Source: Natrinema longum (GTDB taxonomy: Archaea; Halobacteriota; Halobacteria; Halobacteriales; Natrialbaceae). Taken from it: DNA of 64,000 nucleotides. The notes under the pieces are model-generated. The model searched no databases and was not told the origin of the DNA. It was given only the letters and a program-made list of their open reading frames with translations. The position numbers were made by a program, and so were the translations under genes. Shown in pieces: positions 8,103 to 42,066 of this stretch (positions within the stretch are counted from its first letter, which is position 1; each line of letters opens with the position of its first letter). The DNA lies in the NCBI RefSeq assembly GCF_017352095.1, contig NZ_CP071463.1, positions 434,001-498,000 on the forward strand, in the 5' to 3' direction.

Positions 8103-8176
8103 GCCAGGGGAGCATGGGCGGTTCATGCACTCGACTTGTAATCGAGACTTCGTGGGTTCAAATCCCACCCCTGGCT
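8103..8176 (+). tRNA. tRNA-Thr (anticodon TGT)
   Basis: A complete cloverleaf of 74 nt. Acceptor stem GCCAGGG/CCCTGGC (8103-8109 with 8169-8175), D stem GCAT/ATGC, anticodon stem CTCGA/TCGAG with loop CTTGTAA giving anticodon TGT, variable loop ACTTC, T stem GTGGG/CCCAC with TTCAAAT loop. Discriminator T. No intron and no encoded CCA. Confidence 0.96.
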
Positions 8177-36788: not shown

Positions 36789-39700
36789 ATGAGTCAGGCG
36801 ACGCTGTCGGATCGCCCGTACACGAATTCGAATCTCTTCTCCGGGTACTATCTCGACGAGCGGATTCAGGACCGCGAGGAGTGGGACTGCGACGCAGCCG
36901 CGAGCGAGGCTCTCGAGGAACTGCAGGCGCTGTACGACCTCGAGTCGAAGCTGGTCGACGGCTACAAGGAGGATCCGCTGATCGACAACTGGATCGACGA
37001 GGTACTCGAGATCCTGGGCTTTGGAACCAACGTCGAGACGACGCTGCCCGACGGCGGGGGGTACGTCGACGTGCTCCTGTTCGAGGACACCGCGGCGCGC
37101 CGGGACGCGGCCGAGGTCTACCTGAGCAGCGAAGAGACGGCGGACCTGTTCGATCGGGGTGTCGGACTGGTCGAAGCCAAACAGTGGGACGCCGACTTCA
37201 CGACCCGATTCAGCGACCAGCGGCCGTATCGCAACGCCTCCCACCAGATCAAACACTACCTCGAGCGGACGCCCGAGGGGATTCAGTGGGGCGTGTTGAC
37301 CAACGGCCGCAAGTGGCGACTCTACGGGACGAAAGACTACGAGACCCAGACCTACTACGAGATCGATCTGCCGGAACTCCTCGAGCGCGGGGATCTCGAG
37401 GCGTTCAAGTACTTCTACACGTTCTTCCGGCCGGCCGCGTTCCGGGAGTCGGGTGGGACGACCTACCTCGATTCGGTTCGCTCGGAGAGCGAGACGGTCG
37501 CACAGGAACTCGGGGAGGACTTACAGGACAACGTCTTCACGGCGCTGCGGGTGTTGGGACGGGGGTTCGTCGAGACGAACGATCTCGCGATCGATCCCGA
37601 CGACGACGACGGGCTCGGGGAGCTCAAAGAGCAGTCGCTCGTGCTCCTCTATCGGTTGATGTTCGTCCTCTATGCCGAATCGCGGGGCCTGATCCATCCG
37701 GAGGGCGGGGACGCGGTCGCGGAGTACGAGGAGAACTTCAGCCTGGACGAGTTGCGCCTCGAGATCCACGAGGAGATCGGCGAGGTCGACGACGGGTTCG
37801 ACGACGCCTACAGCGAGCACTCGACGACGATGTGGAGCCGGCTCGAGGACCTGTTCCGGCTGATCGACGGGGGTGAGGAATCGCTGGGGATCCCGCCGTA
37901 CAACGGCGGGCTGTTCAACCGTGAGACCCACGACTTCCTGGCCGAACACGAGGTCAGCAATCGGTATCTCGCGGAGGTCATCTATCGGATTTCGACGACG
38001 GAAAACGACGAGGGCCGCTACGTGCTGGCCGACTACGCCGACCTCGATACGCGCCATCTGGGCAGCGTCTACGAAGGGCTGTTAGAGCACCAGTTCCGGA
38101 TCGCGCCCGAGGACTACGCCGCGGTCGCGGCAGACGGCGGGCAGGTCTGGAAACCCGCCACGGAGGTGTCGGTGGCGGAGGCGGTCGAAACCGTCGACGA
38201 GGGCGGGCTCTACGTCGTCAACGACGAGGGCGAGCGGAAGGCCACGGGGGCCTACTACACGCCGGACTACGTCGTGACCTACATCGTCGAGGAGACGGTC
38301 GGGCCGCTGGTCGCGGAGATCAAAGCCGATCTCACCGAGCAGGGCTTCGAGCCGGGGACCCACGAGTATCTCGGGGCCTTCTACCGGCGGGTCACCGACC
38401 TGAAGATCCTCGATCCGGCGATGGGCAGTGGCCACTTCCTCACGCGGGCGACGGAGTATCTGGCCCAGCAGGTCATGGAGGAGGTGCGCGAACTCGAGGA
38501 GGCGACGGCCTTCGACGAACAGCGGGTGCGCCGGGACGTGGCCAAGGAGTGTATCTACGGCGTCGACTTGAACGGGATGGCAGTCGAACTCGCGAAGCTC
38601 TCGATGTGGCTCGAGACGCTGGCGGCCGATCAGCCACTGGCCTTCCTCGATCACCACCTCAAGGCGGGCAACTCGCTGGTCGGCTCGGACGTGACGGCGG
38701 TGCTCTCGAGCGAGACCGCGGACGACGGCGGCCAGTTGACCCTCGAGCAGGCGCTGGCCCGCGTTCGCCAGGACACCTTGGAGCACGTCATGGACCGGAT
38801 GCAGGAGTTGCTCGAGATCGACAACGAGTCCCTCGAGGACGTCAAGTCGATGGAGGAGATTTACGACGAGGTGCGGGCCGACGCGTTCTATCAGCGCCTC
38901 TTCGAGGTGACGAACGTCCATACCGCCGAGCAGTTCGATCTGGACGTGCCCGAGGGGGCCTACGAGCGGCTGGCGCGAGCGATCGACGACGACGAGGCGT
39001 GGGCGGCGGTGCAGGGCGAGGACTGGTTCCAGACGGCCCAGGCGATGAGTGGTGACGAGGCGTTCTTCCACTGGGAGTTGGAGTATCCCGAGGTGTTCTT
39101 CGATGACGATGGAGAGAAGCGGGAGGGGGCAGGGTTTGATGCCGTAATCGGGAACCCCCCATACGTGAAAATACAGGAACTACGGCAAGCGGTTCCCGAG
39201 CAAGCGAATTACCTTACTAACTCGTATCAGTCTGCAACTGGGAATTTCGATCTCTACGTATGCTTTACCGAAAAGGGGCATCGATTGCTAAGTGACGATA
39301 GCGAGTTCGGCTATATCGAACCTCACAAATTCTTCCAAGGGAATTTCGGTGAAGGTCTGAGGGAATACATCTCGGAAAATACCGCACTCAAGAAGATTGT
39401 CTCATTTGGTGATTCACAGGTATTCGAAGCGGCTACGATCTACACGTGTTTGTTGTTCCTCTCTAAATCGCCTCAAGAGGAGTTCGAATATACGGAAGTT
39501 GACACGGAAGTACTAGAAGGCTCTGATAATATTGAGTTAAACACAATCAAAGCCGACTACGGCGCTGACTCGTGGGCATTCAATTCTGCAAAGGTCGCTA
39601 GTGTCCTCGAAACAGTCTCTGGCGCAGGTCCAGAACTACAAGAAGTCAGCGAAAAAGTATTTCAGGGGATTGCGACCAGTGCAGACGCTGTCTACATTTT

Positions 39701-41096
39701 AGAACCAGTAAGTGAACCGAATGATGGTGAGATTGCTGTCAAGAATCAAGAAACCGATGAGACACATGTACTGGAAACAGGACTTCTAAAACCAATGCTC
39801 AAAGGGAATGACTCCGACCGTTATCGTCGGGTCGATCCCCGTTTGAAAGTTATTTTTCCGTACGAGATTTCAGAGAATCAGTCCGAAGCGGAGTTCGTCT
39901 CAAAACAACGGCTAGAACAAGAGTATCCGAAAACATACGAGTATCTTTGCAGCCACGAAGAAACACTACGTGAAAGAGAGAGCGGGAAGATGGACCATGA
40001 CCAGTGGTGGGATTACGTCTATCCGAAGAATCTACTGGACTACGAAAGAGAGTACATAATCACGCCGCGACTCGGCAATCAGCCAGAGTTTACGTTGAAA
40101 CCATCTGGCATATATCACAACACCGACATAGAAGGAATACCGCTCGAGGAAGACTGTAACCTGGATCCGAAGTATGTCCTCGCGTTATTGAATAGTAACG
40201 TCTTCTGGTTTTTCATGGTTAACACCGGATCCACCTTTAGGGGAGGATACTATACGTTTAGAAGTGAGTATCTCTATCCCTTCTCGATTGCTGGCGGAAA
40301 CAAGGATATCAGTGTTGATGGAACAATCTCCGACGAAATCAAAGAATCACACACTGAATACCTAGAGGGAGCTATAGATAGCAATCAAATCCTTCAAACC
40401 TTGTTTTCCGAAGGTGCTAATTTCGCTGTTCAACATGAGTTGCTCTGCTATCTATCTGAGAGGATTATGTCCTATAATAACAATCTAGATTCATTAACGC
40501 TAGATCCCCTCGAGTATCTCGCGAACTATTCGGAAGGTCCGACACTTGATGACGCTGGCTTCTATCAGCCACCAAAGACTGCGCCAACTGACTCTATTCT
40601 CTACGAAACCACGGGAGAACGTGATAATCTCCGTATTGGTCGTGTTGAGATACAACGGCCGAGCGATGATACTGTCGTTGTTACCGCTACCGCTCGTTAC
40701 AAGCCTGACGATGAGTCAGATTATGAGACTGATCGGTGGGGCTATACTGAAACTGATCCTATCGAAGCGTTCCGTCTAACTGATCTCGACGAACTTGAGG
40801 CCAGTCTCATCGAAGTGTTTGTCCCTGTTGCCGTAGAAGAAGCTGATGGTTTCGCGAACTTCCGAGAGACTGCAACGAAAACTAATTCACCCGCAGATCG
40901 GCTGAAAGCACTGATTCTTCCTGCTATAGACAGTGTGGACGACGAGTTGGGTCACTACCTCGAGACGACGGCTCGAGCCGAAGAACTCGAGGCCAAGATC
41001 GAGAAGACGGACGAGTTGATCGACGAAATCGTGTACGAACTGTACGGGCTGACCGAGGAGGAAATCGAGATCGTCGAGGAAGCGGTCGGCGACTGA
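36789..41096 (+). CDS. Type IIG restriction-modification enzyme (Eco57I-like), 1435 aa
   Basis: A single polypeptide with nuclease, adenine methyltransferase and recognition parts. The N-terminal nuclease shows YVDVLLFEDTA and GVGLVEAKQWDADF (D...ExK, about residues 93-137). The methylase has ATGAYYTPDYVVTYIVEETV (about 480-500), motif I ILDPAMGSGHFLTRATEYLA (about 538) and catalytic motif IV VIGNPPYVKIQEL (about 783-795). Residues about 800-1375 form the target recognition part with TaqI-like features; a helical tail (ELEAKIEKTDELIDEIVYEL) ends it. DNA up to the NPPY motif and the last 170 bases are GC-rich; 39.15-40.92 kb is strikingly AT-rich. It may be an active defence enzyme. Confidence 0.93.
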   Translation: MSQATLSDRPYTNSNLFSGYYLDERIQDREEWDCDAAASEALEELQALYDLESKLVDGYKEDPLIDNWIDEVLEILGFGTNVETTLPDGGGYVDVLLFEDTAARRDAAEVYLSSEETADLFDRGVGLVEAKQWDADFTTRFSDQRPYRNASHQIKHYLERTPEGIQWGVLTNGRKWRLYGTKDYETQTYYEIDLPELLERGDLEAFKYFYTFFRPAAFRESGGTTYLDSVRSESETVAQELGEDLQDNVFTALRVLGRGFVETNDLAIDPDDDDGLGELKEQSLVLLYRLMFVLYAESRGLIHPEGGDAVAEYEENFSLDELRLEIHEEIGEVDDGFDDAYSEHSTTMWSRLEDLFRLIDGGEESLGIPPYNGGLFNRETHDFLAEHEVSNRYLAEVIYRISTTENDEGRYVLADYADLDTRHLGSVYEGLLEHQFRIAPEDYAAVAADGGQVWKPATEVSVAEAVETVDEGGLYVVNDEGERKATGAYYTPDYVVTYIVEETVGPLVAEIKADLTEQGFEPGTHEYLGAFYRRVTDLKILDPAMGSGHFLTRATEYLAQQVMEEVRELEEATAFDEQRVRRDVAKECIYGVDLNGMAVELAKLSMWLETLAADQPLAFLDHHLKAGNSLVGSDVTAVLSSETADDGGQLTLEQALARVRQDTLEHVMDRMQELLEIDNESLEDVKSMEEIYDEVRADAFYQRLFEVTNVHTAEQFDLDVPEGAYERLARAIDDDEAWAAVQGEDWFQTAQAMSGDEAFFHWELEYPEVFFDDDGEKREGAGFDAVIGNPPYVKIQELRQAVPEQANYLTNSYQSATGNFDLYVCFTEKGHRLLSDDSEFGYIEPHKFFQGNFGEGLREYISENTALKKIVSFGDSQVFEAATIYTCLLFLSKSPQEEFEYTEVDTEVLEGSDNIELNTIKADYGADSWAFNSAKVASVLETVSGAGPELQEVSEKVFQGIATSADAVYILEPVSEPNDGEIAVKNQETDETHVLETGLLKPMLKGNDSDRYRRVDPRLKVIFPYEISENQSEAEFVSKQRLEQEYPKTYEYLCSHEETLRERESGKMDHDQWWDYVYPKNLLDYEREYIITPRLGNQPEFTLKPSGIYHNTDIEGIPLEEDCNLDPKYVLALLNSNVFWFFMVNTGSTFRGGYYTFRSEYLYPFSIAGGNKDISVDGTISDEIKESHTEYLEGAIDSNQILQTLFSEGANFAVQHELLCYLSERIMSYNNNLDSLTLDPLEYLANYSEGPTLDDAGFYQPPKTAPTDSILYETTGERDNLRIGRVEIQRPSDDTVVVTATARYKPDDESDYETDRWGYTETDPIEAFRLTDLDELEASLIEVFVPVAVEEADGFANFRETATKTNSPADRLKALILPAIDSVDDELGHYLETTARAEELEAKIEKTDELIDEIVYELYGLTEEEIEIVEEAVGD

Positions 41097-41381: not shown

Positions 41382-41639
41382 TTAGCGCTCGCGGTTTATC
41401 AGTCCCGGCGAAACGAGACAGCCACACGGACTCGCGGTGGCTCGATTGGGACCGGTCGCGGAGACGATGGCGACGGGCGTGCCACAACGCGGGCAATCGG
41501 GGAGGTACTGCGAGCCGTGGTCGTCGGGCTCGCTCGTATCGCGGTCGACATCGCTCGAGCCGGACTCGACGTTGCTCGAGCCGGACTCGGCAGTACTCGA
41601 GCCAGGGTCGACATCGCTCGAGTCAGGATCGCTACACAT
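41382..41639 (-). CDS. Small zinc-ribbon protein with Ser/Asp-rich N-terminus
   Basis: An 85-aa frame from ATG 41639 (an ATG three codons earlier is possible). The first 40 residues are Ser/Gly/Asp repeats (SSDVDPGSSTAESGSSNVES), encoded by CTCGAG-rich repeats. The C-terminal half, LPDCPRCGTPVAIVSATGPN followed by PCGCLV, supplies a CxxC plus CxC pair, a plausible zinc ribbon. Function unknown. Confidence 0.6.
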   Translation of the reverse strand: MCSDPDSSDVDPGSSTAESGSSNVESGSSDVDRDTSEPDDHGSQYLPDCPRCGTPVAIVSATGPNRATASPCGCLVSPGLINRER

Positions 41640-42066
41640 CGGACTCACCGCTCGCGACTGTGGCTGGCGCTGGGGCTCGTTCCGTCGGGCGATTCGGGTG
41701 CCGTGCGGGACGTTTATATCCCGGTAGAATGAACGTAATCATGCTTGCAAATCCCCGGTGAGGGATTTGGAAGCAAGTCTCGGGTGTGCACCCACCCGGG
41801 GCGTTTTCATCTAGCCCCCTTTTCTGGAGACTGCTTCCAGTTTAGGCGTTGACCTATTGTGACTTATATCTACTGCAAAGTGGCTGGAAAAGAGTCGGGG
41901 CCGAGCTATCTCGACCGCCAGACACCGGCTCGAGACCCTCCCGTTCCGGACTCGAGACACCCTCGAGAACCCCTCGAGAAGCCCGAAACCCCGCACTCGG
42001 GCCGGCGTCTCGATCGACGACGGGGACGACGGCCTCGAGTCGGCCACCACGACCGACGGCCGCCAT
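41640..42066. other. Intergenic region with a candidate small RNA
   Basis: No gene is credible here. It contains a TATA box (TTTATATC at 41713-41720), the two-hairpin RNA candidate at 41742-41808, then an AT-rich patch (41850-41880) and a CTCGAGA-rich stretch before the stop of the next leftward gene. Confidence 0.5.
41742..41808 (+). ncRNA. Candidate two-hairpin non-coding RNA
   Basis: TTTATATC lies about 25 nt before the predicted start. Hairpin 1: CTTGC (41744-41748) with GCAAG (41773-41777), then AAATCCC (41749-41755) with GGGATTT (41762-41768) around CGGTGA, leaving a GGAA bulge. Hairpin 2: CTCGGGTG (41779-41786) with CACCCGGG (41793-41800) around TGCACC. GCGTTTTC follows as a terminator-like T-run. 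No known RNA family is recognised. Confidence 0.5.

Follow-up and report, generated by a model that had tools for sequence, protein, structure and literature searches.

Introduction

Plasmids supply the textbook example of antisense regulation that works via a coupled leader peptide, and the CopA RNA of R1 reportedly acts by inhibiting translation of its leader peptide. A loop decides compatibility in the I-complex plasmids (PMC10724649), and the ColE1 sense-antisense pair RNAI/RNAII meets by its loops, with a loop change giving orthogonality (PMC9458437). Among archaea, sRNA162 of Methanosarcina mazei is antisense to the long 5′ UTR of the opposite gene MM2442 (184 nt, with a 65-nt overlap; PMC3510493), and in Haloferax four small proteins with CPxCG motifs are down-regulated by sRNA132 (PMC6560208 and PMC11241148). 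Haloferax promoters have a TATA box TTWT and a BRE CGAAA, and 72% of coding transcripts are leaderless (PMC4983044). As far as the partly available texts go, the literature searched yielded no example on an archaeal chromosome of antisense regulation based on such a peptide.

Here, we describe a conserved element in a 64,000-nt window of the Natrinema longum genome (contig NZ_CP071463.1, positions 434,001–498,000); all coordinates are those of the window. We give about even odds to control of a coupled two-ORF mRNA by antisense RNA at this site.

Results

A two-hairpin segment with its own TATA-like box

A sequence-only reading of the window had proposed a candidate free-standing small RNA at 41742–41808, with a TATA box upstream, two stems separated by one base and a T run after the second stem. 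Each of these parts is present where it was placed, the single base between the stems being A41776. The features of the + strand are as follows.

41706–41723, either strand: inverted repeat CGGGAC..TATCCCG around the TATA box, possibly a minus-strand mRNA hairpin or a protein site.
41713–41720, + strand: TATA-like box TTTATATC (TATA1), proposed promoter of a + strand antisense RNA with an expected start at about 41741.
41742–41775, + strand: hairpin 1 of the + RNA, from its fold and from two-sided and one-sided changes.
41777–41802, + strand: hairpin 2 of the + RNA, with a near-invariant stem, from pairing across copies.
41787–41792, either strand: loop of hairpin 2, TGCACC here, hypervariable among paralogs; proposed sense-antisense recognition site.
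41804–41807, + strand: T run TTTT, possible 3′ end of the + RNA.

As a + strand RNA, the 67 nt fold at -37.7 kcal/mol, which none of 200 dinucleotide shuffles equalled (z = -5.3). The same reading had seen no gene on this strand, no tRNA and no familiar RNA family; our search likewise returned no gene-like + strand ORF, and at the hairpin site a tRNA scan was negative and no Rfam family reached its gathering score. The best sub-threshold Rfam match there, the enterovirus cloverleaf (21.6 bits where the cutoff is 46), was taken as chance, and the sole above-threshold feature in the window was a tRNA at 8103–8176. Rfam, tRNA and bacterial promoter scans thus yielded no identity for the segment.

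The opposite strand carries a putative coupled two-ORF operon

The minus strand has the following features.

41382–41639, minus strand: zinc-ribbon protein gene (85 aa, CPRCG...PCGC), from its ORF pattern and alignment.
41632–41742, minus strand: uORF or leader peptide MITFILPGYKRPARHPNRPTERAPAPATVASGESDV, with its stop near the zinc-ORF start and a conserved K10.
41743–41841, minus strand: proposed structured mRNA leader, with an outer stem (41768–41781 with 41826–41838), a hairpin at 41798–41818 and hairpin 2; alternatively hairpin 1.
41863–41876, minus strand: GCAGTAGATATAAG block, proposed promoter of the minus-strand mRNA with an expected start at about 41841; conserved in a 151-copy alignment.

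A CPxCG...PCGC zinc-ribbon ORF lies opposite the element at constant geometry in 145 of 151 copies; the remaining six lack it by pattern, three of them holding a degenerate version. This genome has exactly five loci for such proteins, and they are its five elements. Among 21 aligned proteins, C49, C52 and PCGC are invariant (21/21). CPxCG is one of the family's two Cys-pair knuckles, and the members of the family, putatively zinc binding, are acidic and Cys-rich. Pfam, NCBIfam and PADLOC models gave nothing above cutoff on the members scanned, and no defence family.

The uORF (MITFILPGYKRPAR...) is unannotated, and its ATG borders hairpin 1 at 41742. It was analysed in 128 of 134 representatives, leaving out three without an ATG and three without the zinc motif. 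Its N terminus follows the consensus M-I-x-[YLF]-I-L-P-G-Y-K-[RH]-P-A-R, with K10 in 128/128, and its length ranges from 28 to 123 codons. No more than 8 nt separate the uORF stop from a zinc-ORF start codon in 125 of the 128 copies; in L125 and L136, the zinc-ORF start is well past the stop. Relative to the uORF, the zinc ORF is in frame +1 in 74 copies, in +2 in 54 and never in 0; zero frame-0 stops is true by construction, and the evidence is that the first stop coincides with the zinc start. This coincidence, kept despite variable uORF length and a frame of +1 or +2, is the geometry of translational coupling. In a second set of copies, whose stretches reach just 400 nt, 15 of 65 showed a zinc ORF.

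Because the uORF begins beside hairpin 1 on the opposite strand and is coupled to the zinc ORF, the hairpins would be complementary to a structured 5′ leader on a two-ORF mRNA. The free-standing small RNA survives in part. Conservation in 151 copies, + strand wobbles in hairpin 1 and synonymous constraint under the box favour a structured + RNA that has a T-first TATA-like box and a T run of its own, but the site is not intergenic: a multicopy uORF/zinc-ribbon operon has its putative 5′ leader on the other strand.

Family and distribution of the element

The element spans about 190 bp. The stretch 41690–41880 occurs five times in this genome, the other four copies being 77–79% identical. Matches were found in 42 of 100 genomes searched, including this one and all within one family; at most 8 places per genome were scored, and the copy sets derived from this search are partial. 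The first set holds at least 151 distinct copies, and the second adds 57 from three genomes, covering every listed place in G037 and G175 and all but one listed place, at a contig end, in G049. The exact hairpin-2 pattern was present in 64 of 121 genomes of the same family, at up to 28 per genome, with all controls at zero.

Natrinema ejinorense is the closest named genome with the protein adjacent to the hairpins (85% identity), and the genome of N. ejinorense JCM 13890 in the set searched has four copies of the element. Eight records are plasmid copies, on large plasmids of Natrinema, Natribaculum, Halomontanus, Halopiger and Halostagnicola, and there were zero matches among 50,697 phage records. 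The order box-hairpin-hairpin-TTTT recurs with different sequence in two other families (L233 and L236; profile E 2e-4 and 6e-5).

Two promoter-like blocks flank the segment

Per-base conservation of the TTTATATC box is 0.92–1.0 (151 copies). The uORF codons beneath it are nearly only GGA, TAT, AAA, CGT, CCC and GCA, with synonymous sites almost invariant, and on the aligned copies this constraint is beyond that of coding. TATA1 overlaps uORF codons and could also reflect coding or RNA-hairpin constraint.

The mRNA must begin before the uORF, and the GCAGTAGATATAAG block is the sole conserved AT-rich block upstream, so that the structured segment would lie between two promoters that face each other. 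The two are similarly spaced, the GCAGTAGATATAAG block lying about 26 nt before the outer stem and TATA1 about 26 nt before hairpin 1, and at up to one mismatch GCAGTAGATATAAG occurs in this genome only at its five elements. Its minus direction is inferred from the need of the operon for a promoter: the block reads GATATAAG on the minus strand, which is not T-first, and CTTATATC on the + strand. T-first hexamers prevail upstream of genes in this genome (TTTAT 13 versus 2 reversed, CTTAT 9 versus 2; the statistics are weak), and a genome-derived promoter matrix, too weak with hexamer asymmetry alone, was rejected as a direction test. A + strand gene downstream of 41863–41876 had no consistent start in the 108 of 134 copies with the block matched. 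Given the share of leaderless transcripts in Haloferax, a 200-nt leader ahead of the zinc ORF would be unusual.

Pairing evidence points to both strands

Register shifts hamper column-based covariation in hairpin 1, and per-copy folds and tree-based counts were therefore used. On the tree, hairpin 1 has 32 two-sided changes versus 4–20 in slid controls, and its one-sided changes number 77 for the + strand versus 14 for the minus strand (slid controls summed, 171 versus 128). Wobbles per copy are richer on the + strand in 78 of 134 copies, richer on the minus strand in 5 and tied in 51. Across 47 diverse copies, hairpin 2 read as a + RNA is paired in 99.1% of cells; the pair 41778–41801 is U-G in 92, U-A in 33 and C-G in 8, with zero broken. 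Its strand bias of 21 versus 3 is within the range of slid controls. At least three T follow hairpin 2 in 125 of 134 representatives. In 100 of 134 copies, a control stretch nearby likewise has its better fold on the + strand.

The outer stem has 30 one-sided changes for the minus strand versus 13 for the + strand, and 41767–41840 folds better on the minus strand in 91 of 134 copies. The outer-stem and hairpin-1 folds each form in single copies, with weak covariation for the outer stem, and they are mutually exclusive because the arms 41768–41774 pair with either side. The inverted repeat at TATA1 shows paired changes, for example to CGAGAC..GTCTCG (L005 and L034), with four two-sided events on the tree, and the pairs of this hairpin are kept better on the minus strand (31/49 versus 12/25). 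On balance, RNA would be made from both strands.

The hairpin-2 loop varies from copy to copy

The loop of hairpin 2 is 6–7 nt long and takes 121 forms in the 200 copies found with the hairpin-2 pattern, on a stem that is nearly frozen. This copy-specific loop, visible by comparison only, is in our alignments the most telling feature of the element. The five copies of this genome have five different loops. Among pairs with at least 85% flank identity, which are non-independent, the loop was identical in 0 of 58 within genomes versus 16 of 89 between genomes. At 95% identity or more, mean divergence was 0.024 in the flank and 0.60 in the loop for pairs within a genome (n = 3), versus 0.030 and 0.22 between genomes (n = 18). 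Two copies (L293 and L296) have one difference in a core of about 180 nt outside the loop and differ at 3 of 6 loop bases; two others, 1.1 kb apart (L257 and L258), match at every base of the 95 nt leading up to hairpin 2 and agree at none of the 6 loop positions.

Regardless of flank identity, no loop was shared by any of 379 within-genome pairs in the first set of 151 copies, and 2 of 689 shared one in the second set, both with diverged flanks. The idea that a same loop marks orthologs with diverged flanks was dropped, since identity between genomes (8/1391) versus within genomes (2/689) was near chance; of the comparisons between and within genomes, only the contrast among close relatives holds. 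Loop inversion had no support (6 versus 3.5 expected). A U-turn motif (YUNR) was enriched in the loop over letter shuffles and not clearly over column shuffles (p 0.06). Loops with a Y-T start number 44, those with an A-R end 37 and those with both 6, which would fit a U-turn-like start on just one strand.

A loop that differs among co-resident copies while the remainder is constant is suited to antisense RNAs that each make first contact with their own target through the loop. A single DNA change would alter both partners together and free a copy from the antisense RNAs of its sisters.

Discussion

A proposed model of antisense control

The minus-strand mRNA would start at about 41841 with a structured leader of about 100 nt, followed by the uORF, whose end overlaps the start of the zinc gene, so that translation of the zinc ORF would depend on that of the uORF. 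The promoter at 41713–41720 would yield a + RNA of about 67–100 nt complementary to the mRNA leader, and the two may make first contact at the hairpin-2 loop. Pairing would lock or degrade the leader and block translation of the uORF, and hence of the zinc protein; with a paralog-specific loop, each antisense RNA would silence mainly its own mRNA. The structure, conservation, uORF, coupling geometry and loop diversity are observed; we infer both transcripts and their start sites, the pairing, the direction of regulation and the protein function.

Among described systems, copA/copT-tap-repA of R1 and RNAI/stem-loop I of the I-complex come closest, with an antisense RNA (putative here) opposite a structured leader, a coupled leader peptide and a specificity loop. 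The leader ORF of our element likewise stops at the start of the main ORF (125/128 copies), and loops differ within one cell (0/58 close pairs identical). Unlike those replicons, which we compared in organization, the element is archaeal, mostly chromosomal and present in up to 28 copies per genome. Its main ORF encodes an 85-aa zinc-ribbon protein, here on a 3.59-Mb archaeal chromosome, and not a replication initiator; it would therefore work like such a replicon without being one. RNAI/RNAII of ColE1 resemble the proposed pair in their loop-loop contact and in a loop that sets orthogonality.

The + RNA shares with sRNA162 an archaeal host and a position antisense to a 5′ UTR, but sRNA162 has a single locus and a second, trans target, and the available part of PMC3510493 does not describe uORF coupling or a loop family. 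The zinc-ribbon family resembles the haloarchaeal C(P)XCG zinc-finger micro-proteins in small size and CPxCG motifs; it differs in its second knuckle, PCGC, and HVO_2753_ZBP gave weak matches to 2 of 21 members, the best at E 0.023. ColE1 RNAII also differs from the element, being a replication primer and not an mRNA.

Other explanations for the site

The main rival to antisense control, and in our judgment a less likely one, is a switch in the leader of the minus-strand mRNA alone (a riboswitch, a protein-bound leader or a leader-peptide attenuator), in which the outer stem would alternate with hairpin 1 beside the uORF start and the + strand TATA-like box would be coding sequence and an RNA hairpin. 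The operon demands a minus-strand mRNA, the arms 41768–41774 make the two folds mutually exclusive, and the minus strand is favoured by the outer stem (30:13), by the fold of 41767–41840 (91/134) and by the better-kept pairs around TATA1 (31/49 versus 12/25). However, the hairpin-1 wobbles lean 77:14 toward the + strand, and a loop differing in every close paralog would be unexpected for a ligand-binding aptamer. Alternatively, the + RNA could act in trans on other mRNAs through its copy-specific loop, the zinc operon opposite being an accident of promoter sharing; multiple copies, a loop that might serve as a seed, the TATA-like box and the T run would all suit such a stand-alone small RNA, but with the operon on the opposite strand in 145 of 151 copies at constant geometry we regard it as improbable.

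The small coupled ORFs, the putative antisense RNA and the many paralogs with distinct loops also recall a type I toxin-antitoxin pair, with the zinc protein or uORF peptide as toxin and the + RNA as antitoxin. We give this little credence: the usual type I toxin is a hydrophobic membrane peptide, whereas the zinc protein is acidic and Cys-rich and lacks the character of a small hydrophobic toxin. Least probable is a small non-autonomous transposon that carries promoters and an ORF by chance. The copies are dispersed and many per genome, and near-identical ones stop abruptly at unrelated flanks, but the coupled uORF and the promoter-like blocks are conserved and no terminal inverted repeat was noticed in the aligned copies. 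In an empty-site comparison, flanks were too diverged, with short weak matches only beyond this genome and a same-species relative.

Changing partners of the leader and uORF

In the two other families (L233 and L236), the uORF peptide retains G8 and P12. In one of them (L233:1465–1665, minus strand; MWYGSMQTEVHSGHKSPEPTEESPTCPQCG...), the uORF peptide and the zinc ribbon form a single in-frame fusion, which suggests that they are functionally linked; in the other (L236), the uORF overlaps by ATGA another ORF, which we take to resemble a winged-helix regulator by sequence inspection. In genomes G037 and G175 (L241–L288), the uORF, mostly ...RQKGLAR..., often overlaps by ATGA a different Cys-rich small protein (CYRC...CCEHC...MNLSEFS); in this genus, it is mostly that protein, in place of the PCGC zinc ribbon, which follows the leader and uORF. 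Among 56 analysed copies of the second set, 29 have an ATG or GTG start within the overlap window. An ORF is inserted ahead of the zinc ORF in genomes G161 and G191; the inserted ORF of L212 and L214 has about 75 aa. It thus looks as if the leader, the antisense region and the uORF move together as one unit, with partner ORFs changing behind them.

A wider picture, which we hold tentatively and at somewhat less than even chance, is that of haloarchaeal genomes with up to 28 paralogous micro-protein operons, in which every operon would possess a dedicated antisense RNA and leader peptide keyed by the loop, and a duplicate would escape silencing through a new loop. Such a system would be the cellular equivalent of plasmid incompatibility, and its control cassette could be carried to different small genes in different lineages. 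If so, the elements would provide natural RNA pairs that are orthogonal to one another within one cell, offer a test bed for the evolution of antisense specificity after gene duplication and give a regulatory context to many unannotated haloarchaeal micro-proteins; the function of abundant haloarchaeal antisense transcription would become testable at a defined site.

Beside three plasmid copies (L237, L238 and L240), both the uORF and the zinc ORF are absent from the adjoining entries of gene tables that are incomplete, and beside another (L239), a 68-aa hypothetical protein adjoins the element. In the window, the downstream neighbour of the operon is a convergent 1435-aa ORF on the + strand (36789–41096), which from inspection of its sequence we presume to resemble a BREX PglX or type IIG-like methylase.
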